This document shows positions 7,340-12,531 of a DNA stretch of 64,000 bases, in pieces (the first letter of the stretch is position 1; every line of letters starts with the position of its first letter). The position numbers and the translations under genes are program-made. Source of the stretch: an uncultured Pelagibacteraceae bacterium (GTDB lineage: Bacteria; Pseudomonadota; Alphaproteobacteria; Pelagibacterales; Pelagibacteraceae); contig CABZKL010000001.1 of NCBI GenBank assembly GCA_902526405.1, positions 62,001 to 126,000 on the forward strand, read 5' to 3'. Below the pieces are notes generated by a model. The model did not search any database. It was not told where the DNA came from and was given only the letters and a program-made list of their open reading frames with translations.

Positions 7340-8096
7340 TTATTACGCATTTAGAGCAATGTACCTTCATGAAATGGATCGTTTCAAAAGAACATTAATG
7401 CAATCTTTATTCTCACCAGTTCTCTCAACTTCATTATACTTTATTGTTTTTGGATCAGTTATAGGTGGTTATGTGGAGAAAATTGATGGTATCAGCTATG
7501 GATCTTTCATAGTTCCAGGTTTATTAATGCTTACATTGTTAACTCAATCAATAAGTAACACTTCGTTTGGTATTTTTTTTCCAAAATTTAACGGTACCAT
7601 GTATGAAATTCTTGCAGCACCTATTTCAACATTTGAAATTGTATTAGCATTTGTTGGTGCTGGTGCGACCAAAACATTACTTGTCGGTGTAGTAATTTTT
7701 TTAACAGCTACATTTTTTGTAGAAGTTCAAGTTATGTATCCATTGTTAATGATTTTTTTATTAGTATTAGTTGCTTTTACATTTGCTTTATTTGGTTTTT
7801 TAATTGGTTTGATGAGCTCAAATTTTGAACAAATGTCAATTGTTCCAACACTAGTGATCACACCAATGGTTTTTTTAGGGGGAAGTTTATATTCTTTAGA
7901 TATGCTACCAGAATTTTGGCAGACGGTTACTTATTTTAACCCAGTAGTATATTTAATTAATGGTTTGCGATTTGCATTTTATGGAGTTTCTGATTTTAAT
8001 ATATGGATTAGTGTCAGCCTAATGGTTCTATTCTTAGTAATATGTGTAACTGTAGTGTCTGTACTACTTAAAAAAGGTTACAAAATTAAAACTTAA
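7329..8096 (+). CDS. ABC-2 type transporter permease
   Basis: Overlaps the upstream ATPase; six TM segments; [31 protein letters not shown] motif. Confidence 0.93.
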
Positions 8097-9232
8097 TTAC
8101 TAGCTATTTTCTTTTTTGGATCAAAAAAAGGTTTTTCTACTACTATAGCTTCAAAATTACCTTTATTAGTATTTACTTCTAAACTAGTTCCAATTTCTGA
8201 ATTTTCAATATTTACCATTGCTAGCGCAATATTTTTTTTTAATCTTGGTGAATATACCGCAGATGTTACTTTTCCAATTTTGTTGTTATCTTTTTTTATA
8301 GACCAGAAAGTTGTGTTAGGCCCAGATAGCGGTTCACAATTAATCTCTAAACCAACTTGTTTTCGTGTTATACCCTCAGCTTTGATTTTTTTTAGAGCTG
8401 TCTTTCCAATAAATTCAATATCACTATCTAGAGATACTAAACGATCTAAACCTAATTCAAATGGGTTAGTATTAATATCAGCATCAGCATGATATGAAAG
8501 CATCCCACCTTCAATTCTTCTTATTGAAGATGTATGGCCAGGCTGAAGACCATATTCTTTTCCAGCACTCATTATTTTTTCATATAAATTATTTCCTTTA
8601 GAACCATCTCTTAAAAATAATTCATAACCAAACTCACTAGACCAGCCAGTTCTAGAAACAATTAATGGTATGCCATCTAAATCATATTCCCTAAACCAAT
8701 AATATTTGAGATCTTTAATACTTTCACCAAAAAGTTTTATCATAATGTCTTTCGATGTAGGTCCTTGTAGCTGTAATGGCGAAACATCAGGTTCTGTTAT
8801 ATTAACACTCATTCCTGAATTAACCGCAACACCTTGAGCCCATAATAAAACATCACTATCTGCGAGTGAAAGCCAAAAATGATTTTCACCTATTCTTAAT
8901 AAAACTGGGTCGTTTAAAATTCCACCTTCATTATTTGTGATTAAAACATATTTACATTGACCAATAGCAACATTTGAAAGATCTCTTGGTGTAAGTAGTT
9001 GAGTAAATTTGAAAGCATCAGGTCCAGTAATTTCAACCTGTCTTTCTACTGCAACGTCACAAAGTATTGATTTTTCAATCAAGTTCCAAAAATTTTGTTC
9101 AGGGCTCCCAAAATCTCTTGGAATATACATATGATTGTAGACTGAAAAACCGGTTGCACCCCATTTTACAGTTGAGTCAAAGTATGGGGACTTTCTAATT
9201 TGTGTTCCAAAACCAAAGTTTTTATTAGTCAT
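8093..9232 (-). CDS. GcvT/DmdA-family aminomethyltransferase-like protein
   Basis: ERQVEITGPDAFKFTQLLTPRDLS, SLADSDVLLWAQGVA, LQGPTSKDIM; resembles the DMSP demethylase DmdA branch, substrate not determinable by eye. Confidence 0.85.
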   Translation of the reverse strand: MTNKNFGFGTQIRKSPYFDSTVKWGATGFSVYNHMYIPRDFGSPEQNFWNLIEKSILCDVAVERQVEITGPDAFKFTQLLTPRDLSNVAIGQCKYVLITNNEGGILNDPVLLRIGENHFWLSLADSDVLLWAQGVAVNSGMSVNITEPDVSPLQLQGPTSKDIMIKLFGESIKDLKYYWFREYDLDGIPLIVSRTGWSSEFGYELFLRDGSKGNNLYEKIMSAGKEYGLQPGHTSSIRRIEGGMLSYHADADINTNPFELGLDRLVSLDSDIEFIGKTALKKIKAEGITRKQVGLEINCEPLSGPNTTFWSIKKDNNKIGKVTSAVYSPRLKKNIALAMVNIENSEIGTSLEVNTNKGNFEAIVVEKPFFDPKKKIASN

Positions 9233-9334: not shown

Positions 9335-10609
9335 TTAAAATTGTTCTGACTCCGTTGAGCCAGCCATCGCGGTGGTTGAACTTTGTCCACTGCTTATAGT
9401 ATTTGAAACTGCATCAAAATAAGATGTTCCAACTTCGCGTTGATGCTTTACGCTGGTATAACCATCTTTTTCTCTAGCAAATTCTTGTTGCTGGATTTTA
9501 GAATAAGCAGTCATACCTTCTTTTTTATATTTTTCTGCAAGTTCGAAAATTGCAATATTTTGAGTATGAAAGCCAGCTAATGTTATAAACTGAAATTTGT
9601 ATCCCATTTTAGCAATTTCTTTTTGAAAAGACGCTATTTCATCATCATTTAAATGTTTTTTCCAATTAAAGGATGGAGAACAATTATAAGCTAAAAGTTT
9701 TCCAGGATATTTTTCATGAATAGCATCCGCGAATTTTTTAGCTTCCTCTAAATTTGGAGTAGCTGTTTCACACCATATTAAGTCAGCATACGGTGCATAT
9801 GCTAGACCTCGAGAAATTGCTTGTTCAATACCATCTTTTACATAAAAGAAACCTTCAGGAGATCTTTTGCCTGTAAGAAAAGGTTTATCATTTTCATCGA
9901 AATCATTTGTAATTAATTTGGCTGCATTAGCATCTGTTCTCGCTAAAATAATTAAAGGCACGTCTGCAATATCAGCAGCAAGTCTTGCTGCCTTTAAATT
10001 TTTAACCATAGTTCCTGTTGGCACTAAAACTTTACCACCCATATGGCCACATTTTTTTTCACTAGCTAATTGATCTTCAAAATGAACACCAGCAGCACCT
10101 GCTTTAATAAATTTTTTAGTTAGTTCAAAAACATTCAATGGTCCACCAAAACCTGCCTCTCCGTCTGCTATAATTGGCAGCATATAATCTGTTCTATTTT
10201 TTGCCTCCATGTCTCCATCTTGCATTTCCATATGTTGAATTTGATCTGCTCTTACAAGGGAGTTGTTCATTGACTCAACTAATTTGGGAGCACTATCATA
10301 AGGATAGAGTGATTGATCAGGATACATTTCACCAGCTGTATTAGCATCCGCTGCTACTTGCCACCCACTTAAATAAATTGCTTTCAAACCCGCTTTAGCA
10401 TGCTGTACTGCTTGATTACCTGAGAGAGAGCCTAGAGTATTAACATATGGTTCTGAATTTAATAATTTCCAAAGCTTTTGTGATTGGTTCTTGCATAAAG
10501 AATATTCTATTTTAATTGAGCCTCTTAATCTTTCTACTTCCTTTTCTGTATAATCACGTTTAATTCCAGAGTATCTTTTTAGTTCGTAGGAGATTTTTTC
10601 TGCACTCAT
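9335..10609 (-). CDS. aceA: Isocitrate lyase
   Basis: [14 protein letters not shown] catalytic motif; [15 protein letters not shown]. Confidence 0.96.
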
Positions 10610-10658: not shown

Positions 10659-10820
10659 TTAATCTTTATCGTTTGATGTTTCGATAAGATCATTCATTCC
10701 ACTTGAACCCCAATCACAGTAATCATCTCTCATATAGATCCCTCTATTATTATGATGATCTAAATCTTCTTTTCTTATGATTTGAGCCTCATTTTCAGTG
10801 TTTTTGATTTTTTTGTTCAT
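10659..10820 (-). CDS. Unannotated 53-aa small ORF upstream of aceA
   Basis: Read directly: MNKKIKNTENEAQIIRKEDLDHHNNRGIYMRDDYCDWGSSGMNDLIETSNDKD*; 54 codons, same strand as aceA, 49-bp gap. Confidence 0.55.
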   Translation of the reverse strand: MNKKIKNTENEAQIIRKEDLDHHNNRGIYMRDDYCDWGSSGMNDLIETSNDKD

Positions 10821-10832
10821 GTAAATCTTATA

Positions 10833-10925
10833 ATTTACTAAATTTACAAATTCTACAAAAAATTACAAAATGCTTGTAAATGCTATAAAATAATTGTAAA
10901 AATAAATTTACAAAATTTACAATAA
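10833..10925. promoter_or_regulatory. Cluster of TTACAAA/TTGTAAA elements in the regulator/aceA divergent region
   Basis: TTTACAAA, ATTACAAAA, TTGTAAA (x2), TTTACAAAATTTACAA repeated within about 90 bp upstream of the XRE/ScfR-like gene. Confidence 0.5.
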
Positions 10926-10930
10926 GTAAA

Positions 10931-12367
10931 ATGAGTCAAATAGATTTAAAAATAGGCCCAAAAATCAAGGCGTTTCGAAGACAATTAGGCCTTCAAGCAA
11001 ATAAGTTAGCTGAGGATTTAAGTATTTCTCCTAGTTATTTAAATTTAATAGAAAGTGGCAAGAGAAAAATTGATGGAGATTTGCTACTAAACGTCTGTGA
11101 GAAATTAAATATTCAATTATCAGATCTTACATCAAAAACGGATATTAATCTTCAAAACACAATTTCTGAAATTCTAGATGATAATTTGTTTGAGGATTTG
11201 GATATCTTGGGGCCAGAGGTAAAAGATTTAGTTAGCACAAACCCTAAAATTGGAAAAGCAATAGTTAGATTAGGAGATATTTTAAAAAAAAAGGATCATG
11301 AATTAATTGATAAAATTGAAAGAATTTCTGGCAAAATAGTAGACAACAGAAAAAATTCTTTTCCAGGCGAGGTAATCTCTGACTTCTTGCAAGAAAATAA
11401 AAATTATTTTCCAAAATTAGAGGAATTTGCAAATAAGGTTTTTGAAAAAATTCAGAAAAATAACAGAACAAGATATATTTCATTATGCGAATATTTGAAT
11501 ACTGAATATTCTATAATTGTAAAAGATGTTATTCCTGACGAAAAAAAACCCTTTTCAAAAATATATAAGAAAAATAAAAAAGAACTTTTATTAAGTGATT
11601 ACAGTTCATTAGAAACTAAAAAATTACATGCTGCAGCTCAAATAGCTCAAGAGGGAGCAAACAAGGAAATAGATAATTATTTATCAGGATTTAGTTTTCC
11701 AACAGAGGAGTCTAAAAAGCTAACAAAAATAGCTTTACTAAATTATTGTGCAGCTGCAATTTTAATGCCATACGAATTATTTCATGCGGAGTGCAAAAAA
11801 CTCAAATATGATTTAGAATTATTACAAAATACATTTGCCACTTCTTTTGAACAAGTTGCTCATAGGGTGACATGCCTACAAGATCCCAAACTCCCAGGAA
11901 TTCCATTCCATTTTTTGAGAGTAGATATGGCTGGTAATATTTCTAAAAGATTTTCTTTATCAGGGATTGATATCCCTAGATATGGTGGAGCATGCCCTAG
12001 GTGGAATGTTTATTCGGCATTTACAAGACCTGGAGTGATACAAGCGGCAGTAAGTAAAATGAATAATGGAGAAAAATACGTCTGCATTGCTAGAACTGTT
12101 GAAAAAGGTATTGGAAGATTTGGACAAGCAAAGAGTGTTTTGTCAATTGGTCTAGGCTGTGAAGCAAAATATGCAAAAGATTTTATTTATACAGAAAACA
12201 TAAATGTAAACGATAAATCTTCAGAAATACCGATTGGTGTATCTTGCAGGACATGTGACAGATTGGATTGTTCACAAAGAGCCTTTCCACCCTTACATAA
12301 AAAATTTGATGTAGATTTAAACTCCAGAGGAGTTTCTGTTTATGTTAGTGATAATAATTTTAAATAA
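10931..12367 (+). CDS. XRE-family ScfR/RamB-like transcriptional regulator (HTH + IrrE-like + DUF2083-type C-terminus)
   Basis: HTH KIKAFRRQLGLQANKLAEDLSISPSYLNLIESGKR; C-terminal GVSCRTCDRLDCSQRAFPP; divergent to aceA. Confidence 0.9.
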   Translation: MSQIDLKIGPKIKAFRRQLGLQANKLAEDLSISPSYLNLIESGKRKIDGDLLLNVCEKLNIQLSDLTSKTDINLQNTISEILDDNLFEDLDILGPEVKDLVSTNPKIGKAIVRLGDILKKKDHELIDKIERISGKIVDNRKNSFPGEVISDFLQENKNYFPKLEEFANKVFEKIQKNNRTRYISLCEYLNTEYSIIVKDVIPDEKKPFSKIYKKNKKELLLSDYSSLETKKLHAAAQIAQEGANKEIDNYLSGFSFPTEESKKLTKIALLNYCAAAILMPYELFHAECKKLKYDLELLQNTFATSFEQVAHRVTCLQDPKLPGIPFHFLRVDMAGNISKRFSLSGIDIPRYGGACPRWNVYSAFTRPGVIQAAVSKMNNGEKYVCIARTVEKGIGRFGQAKSVLSIGLGCEAKYAKDFIYTENINVNDKSSEIPIGVSCRTCDRLDCSQRAFPPLHKKFDVDLNSRGVSVYVSDNNFK

Positions 12368-12531
12368 TGATAAAATTTATAATCCCAGCTGTTGTAGTTT
12401 TCTTGATAGTTTTGTTTTGGGAAAAAATTACTGAATTTGCTGAAAAAAAATTAAATATTAAACTTAATTATATTCTTGTTAGCTCCATAATAGTAATTAT
12501 AGCAATTATCCTTTTATTGCTAAATTATTAG
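12367..12531 (+). CDS. Small membrane protein (54 aa)
   Basis: MIKFIIPAVVVFLIVLFWEKITEFAEKKLNIKLNYILVSSIIVIIAIILLLLNY*; starts in TAATG overlap with the preceding stop; below track cutoff. Confidence 0.6.
   Translation: MIKFIIPAVVVFLIVLFWEKITEFAEKKLNIKLNYILVSSIIVIIAIILLLLNY

Follow-up and report, generated by a model that had tools for sequence, protein, structure and literature searches.

The isocitrate lyase gene of SAR11 bacteria, aceA, is preceded by a small gene that is under strong selection at the protein level, is present whenever aceA is, and is lost together with aceA and with the gene of a divergent ScfR-type regulator. Its product probably serves these bacteria as an uncharacterized regulator of the glyoxylate shunt, or as a partner in it.

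A small gene between aceA and a divergent regulator

The analysis started from a window of 64,000 nucleotides of DNA from an uncultured Pelagibacteraceae bacterium; "the window" refers to this whole stretch, whose source genome is a member of a large SAR11 genus. The small gene occupies positions 10659..10820 on the minus strand, with an ATG start and 53 codons followed by a stop, and belongs to a family that is conserved beside aceA. The aceA gene (9335..10609, minus strand; isocitrate lyase, 424 aa) is preceded by its own Shine-Dalgarno-like AAAGGA. Upstream of the small gene and divergent from it lies a regulator of the ScfR/RamB type (10931..12367, plus strand) with a helix-turn-helix (HTH), an IrrE-like M78 domain and a ScfRs C-terminal domain (Pfam HTH_3, Peptidase_M78 and ScfRs). 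Its NCBIfam RamB score of 356 bits is under the model cut-off of 700 bits. A previous reading of this DNA (the sequence-only reading) had reported the ORF on the aceA strand, 49 bp before aceA and between aceA and a probable ScfR/RamB-type regulator. The ORF sequence and coordinates agree exactly with that report, the spacing to the start of aceA measures 49 nt, and the Pfam domains together with the RamB match below cut-off bear out the placement. The product is polar and acidic, as had also been claimed, with 12 D/E against 8 K/R.

Two further neighbours were recorded. The gene after aceA in the window (8093-9232, minus strand) resembles GcvT and reaches 389.6 bits against a DMSP demethylase model, just below the 410-bit cut-off; the cultured strain HTCC1062, unlike the window, has a 97-aa ORF together with the sfu iron transporter at this position. 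On the other flank, a very hydrophobic 54-aa ORF (12367-12531, plus strand), which has sub-threshold Pfam matches only, begins on the final nucleotide of the ScfR stop.

The ORF is under protein-level selection

A search with the single sequence gave a match in 95 of 151 genomes of the same genus, at one place per genome. A 15-row profile found the gene in 164 of the 297 genomes of the order and in 98 of the 150 near-complete ones, and both searches returned one copy per genome. A scan of the collection yielded 516 relatives, and all of the 80 listed are SAR11. Every one of the 165 loci that were read, among which some genomes are counted twice and 93 distinct peptides are represented, has an intact ORF followed directly by aceA on the same strand; neither a loss of conservation nor a broken frame was seen in these syntenic relatives. 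ScfR is divergent and upstream in 163 of the 163 loci where this could be read.

Codon-level purifying selection is evident in the 128 distinct coding sequences, with a pooled pN/pS of 0.26. This value falls to 0.021 for residues 27-42 (10695..10742, minus strand; GIYMRDDYCDWGSSGM) and is 0.34 for the remainder of the ORF. The near-invariant core follows the pattern G-[IVT]-Y-[MLI]-RDDHCDWGSSGM, and 12 of its 16 residues are invariant in this set. I28 and M30 are exchanged mostly for similar residues, I28 is also replaced by T, and M42 is replaced by I once. The family consensus at residue 34 is H, present in 127 of the 128 coding sequences; the Y found in the window alone (codon 10719-10721, minus strand) may be peculiar to this genome or may reflect a sequence error. 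Across relatives G27 is encoded by all four Gly codons, and the length of the ORF varies by whole codons only.

It might be supposed that the ORF is spurious, or that it is conserved merely as DNA, for instance as an operator or promoter. The AT-rich intergenic setting and the lack of any match in Pfam and NCBIfam would be in keeping with this idea, but the pN/pS values, the use of all four Gly codons at G27, the restriction of length changes to whole codons and the diversity of peptides argue against it. The codon analysis rules it out, and we regard it as hardly credible. The ORF is a real gene, in agreement with the earlier claim that it did not resemble random translation.

Co-occurrence with aceA and ScfR

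Among 25 ORF-negative SAR11 genomes that were tested, 23 lack aceA and yield weak paralogue matches only. In the remaining two a contig end falls in or near aceA: in G013 the contig stops inside aceA, and in G241 it stops 108 nt upstream of aceA, where the leftover stretch encodes IKSLDDNN*, the C-terminus of the small-protein family. Inside SAR11, presence of the small gene and presence of aceA imply each other. ScfR is also absent from nearly all of the ORF-negative genomes that were searched, with two retaining a C-terminal fragment, so that loss takes all three genes as a block. At the 27 aceA loci examined from other alphaproteobacteria, of which 19 have a detectable ScfR, no member of the small-protein family was found. 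Two loci from another alphaproteobacterial family (L213 and L214) carry close copies of an 82-aa ORF (MQDQNNRTQPPQEDYCTIIAPSMAEAMRQF...) upstream of aceA, which has no Pfam match.

Diverged relatives and novelty of the family

Two other SAR11 genera possess diverged members, with the motif QDWGxSG, before aceA. In one of these genera the stop codon of the member (MTNKTSELFTKYLEEKLGLNTQVAKECQFQQRGIYVREDDQDWGGSGMQDIQTNNEETSNA) abuts or overlaps the start of aceA, and in the other the member (MSKSSEDFIKEIEQKIKKAAGGEPGQDQGLFINEDNQDWGSSGLEHYTAAQRMN) lies ~200 nt before aceA. Residues G27, D33, D36, W37, G38, S40 and G41 are invariant in all three genera. The core Cys (C35) is replaced by Gln in the two other genera and H34 is likewise unconserved outside the genus. 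A metal or redox site formed by H34 and C35 was therefore rejected, H34 being missing in the window itself, and judging by these replacements such a role is not a general one. Genus g5, which is more distant, has an additional 56-aa ORF (MRREKNNIESNC...) between the small gene and aceA (L240:2219-2389, plus strand; also L174), with a sub-threshold Pfam match only (Imm30, E 0.0063).

A 27-row profile gained no further genus (3 of 12). Pfam, NCBIfam, PHROGs and PDB contain no relative, the matches being at chance level (one PHROG at 0.18; PDB E values of 1.1 and 1.4). The plasmids and phages that were searched gave nothing better than E 6-9, and none of four pattern matches in viral contigs encodes a relative. 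Class-level profile searches outside SAR11 returned weak matches only. Two candidates were taken as chance: the match in L166 is out of frame and falls on an ABC-transporter gene, and that in L203 (EKGYFFMSDEDDWGGSG; per-genome E 0.0012, with 385 genomes) lies away from aceA. As judged from these searches, the small protein represents a new family of operon-encoded small proteins, so far seen in SAR11 only.

The sequence-only reading had called the ORF unannotated, which is doubtful and probably wrong for HTCC1062. In a microarray study of this strain aceA is SAR11_1240 and a transcription regulator is SAR11_1242, and both rise mildly under iron limitation (PMC2864753). An HTCC1062 intergenic region, 1181972-1182071, has been reported between SAR11_1238 and SAR11_1239 (PMC2704228). 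In genome G196 the end of sfuC and the start of the next gene fall exactly on the borders of this region, and the gene order beyond the border is 97-aa ORF, aceA, small ORF and ScfR. One locus tag is free between SAR11_1240 and SAR11_1242, at the place of the small ORF, and by elimination the HTCC1062 equivalent is probably SAR11_1241. A search of the available literature for SAR11_1241 found no paper naming the gene and no function.

Predicted promoter and putative operators

In the window a -10-like hexamer, TATAAG (10827..10832, minus strand), lies 6 nt before the ATG of the small gene. This placement is nearly constant: of 116 distinct loci, 105 have TATAA or TATAT starting at exactly -12, so that the hexamer ends 6 nt upstream of the ATG. 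The small gene is without a Shine-Dalgarno-like 4-mer in 109 of these 116 loci, and aceA has a Shine-Dalgarno-like sequence of its own in 102 of 110. The fixed TATAA[AG] and the lack of a Shine-Dalgarno sequence predict a leaderless message, whose 5' end would lie at the ATG or close to it. This signature was not seen in g5, in which GGGAGG precedes the start (L165).

The divergent promoter region (10821..10930) contains five TTTACAA/TTGTAAA boxes (10843-10849, 10874-10880, 10894-10900, 10907-10913 and 10916-10922), compared with 0.2 in shuffled sequences, and 0 of 2000 shuffles reach 5. Boxes of the TTTACAA type are conserved in 130 distinct intergenic regions. The Paracoccus denitrificans RamB operon resembles that of SAR11 in having a divergent ScfR gene beside glyoxylate genes, with paired operator boxes upstream, and purified RamB binds its boxes as well as CoA esters; in Paracoccus malate synthase lies between ramB and icl, whereas SAR11 has the small protein there and TTTACAA-like boxes (PMC10370305). 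By analogy with these paired boxes, it is plausible that the SAR11 boxes are ScfR operators.

What the small protein may do

An AlphaFold (AF2) model of the small protein has a mean pLDDT of 62.7 and a pTM of 0.20, and its core contains neither helix nor strand, so that the protein has no confident or stable predicted fold. The combination of disorder with a single fixed motif suggests that the peptide docks on a partner that is conserved too. Of AceA and ScfR, the former is the more conserved across the loci; for this reason, and on account of operon position and co-occurrence, AceA is favored as the partner. The best explanation of the data, with nearly an even chance of being correct, is that the protein is co-expressed with isocitrate lyase and, through its short motif, serves as a partner or regulator of the enzyme. 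It would be translated from the 5' end of the leaderless aceA transcript, which is probably controlled by the divergent ScfR/RamB regulator, and would act, without a stable fold, through the motif G-hydrophobic-aromatic-x-x-acid-D-x-x-DWGxSG-hydrophobic. Isocitrate lyase itself is the most likely candidate for the constant partner on which this motif would dock, and docking would tune or stabilize the enzyme, at the isocitrate branch point of cells in which no AceK was found. AceK (PF06315), searched for with E. coli as the positive control, gave no match in the genome from which the window comes, although the absence is weak since that genome is only ~77% complete; some other control of the branch point is conceivable. 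The more specific proposal, that a dedicated 53-residue protein controls SAR11 isocitrate lyase post-translationally via a DWGSSG docking motif and replaces AceK-type control, is possible but more speculative.

The sequence-only reading had offered two roles, a regulator of isocitrate lyase or a leader peptide. The first remains plausible and the best reading, on the grounds of synteny, co-loss and operon structure; the second is disfavored. If the ORF were a leader peptide, its translation and not its product would control aceA by attenuation or ribosome stalling, and as in leaders of the TnaC/SecM type a short upstream ORF is found in the same transcript, where the aceA mRNA is predicted to begin. 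The window RNA also folds better than its own shuffles (z -3.34), but in four other loci folding does not exceed that of shuffles (z -0.38 to -1.06), no conserved structure, compensatory pairs or covariation was found across the loci, and there is no terminator; an RNA element was accordingly dismissed. Moreover, the gap to aceA varies from 29 to 81 nt within the genus, and in the other two genera it is nil or ~200 nt. The conserved residues are central, in a block that ends 11 codons before the stop, and selection acts on amino acids. The ORF thus differs from the TnaC/SecM type in having neither a conserved RNA element nor a C-terminal arrest motif, and its central motif appears to be selected as protein, which makes a leader-peptide mechanism quite improbable.

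Since the co-loss takes in ScfR, synteny alone cannot choose AceA over ScfR as the partner. The main rival is that the small protein, as the first product of an ScfR-driven transcript, binds ScfR and feeds back on the divergent promoter. The gene always lies between the two promoters, and its partial distance correlation with ScfR (0.44) is at least that with AceA (0.38), but the two values are too similar to separate the candidates, and alleles are swapped in both directions; the labels of tandem and single ScfR forms in this comparison are blurred by short loci that cut ScfR. In L087 and L007 AceA and the small protein are 98.3 and 98.1% identical and ScfR 81.4%; in L026 and L023 the respective values are 98.8, 100 and 73.8%. 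Conversely, the small proteins of L082 and L119 are just 75.5% identical and their AceA 99.1%. A minority of SAR11 loci (L005, L027, L033, L044, L050, L064, L067, L071, L072, L073, L076, L079, L082 and L087) carry a divergent ScfR with two tandem HTH domains, of 564 aa compared with 476-479, and these forms are exchanged among close relatives in which AceA and the small protein differ little. This swapping of ScfR alleles while the small protein is unchanged argues against a co-regulator of ScfR, as does the ability of purified Paracoccus RamB to bind boxes and CoA esters (PMC10370305). The 19 alphaproteobacterial loci with ScfR beside aceA and no such ORF weigh against it as well, and we consider this role less likely than partnership with AceA; that many alphaproteobacteria run aceA and ScfR without the small protein is equally a counterpoint to AceA as the partner. 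Somewhat less probable again is an accessory protein that is co-regulated with aceA and serves another target in the pathway, such as isocitrate dehydrogenase, malate synthase or acetyl-CoA supply. Tight co-occurrence proves membership of the pathway only and a short motif could bind another protein, but in three genera the gene sits with aceA and not with other shunt genes.

Partnership with isocitrate lyase, the reading that we prefer, has parallels elsewhere. CP12 and PirC are small or disordered regulators of carbon-metabolism enzymes, very short, with one conserved short motif, that act at a central-carbon branch point. The SAR11 protein resembles them in its length, its lack of a predicted stable fold, its single short motif and its tie to such a branch point; it differs in that no sequence relation was shown and its partner is putative. 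CP12 uses Cys pairs, and no conserved pair of this kind is present in the SAR11 protein, whose single Cys is conserved in one genus only. AceK, a large isocitrate dehydrogenase kinase/phosphatase, also exerts control at this branch point, and in enterics its gene lies with aceA; it bears no relation to the 53-aa protein.

Significance

SAR11 are among the most abundant cells in the ocean and possess few regulators, and the glyoxylate shunt can balance respiration against biosynthesis. The near-absolute selection on the core of this protein and its strict tie to isocitrate lyase point to an undescribed control of the decision between the two.
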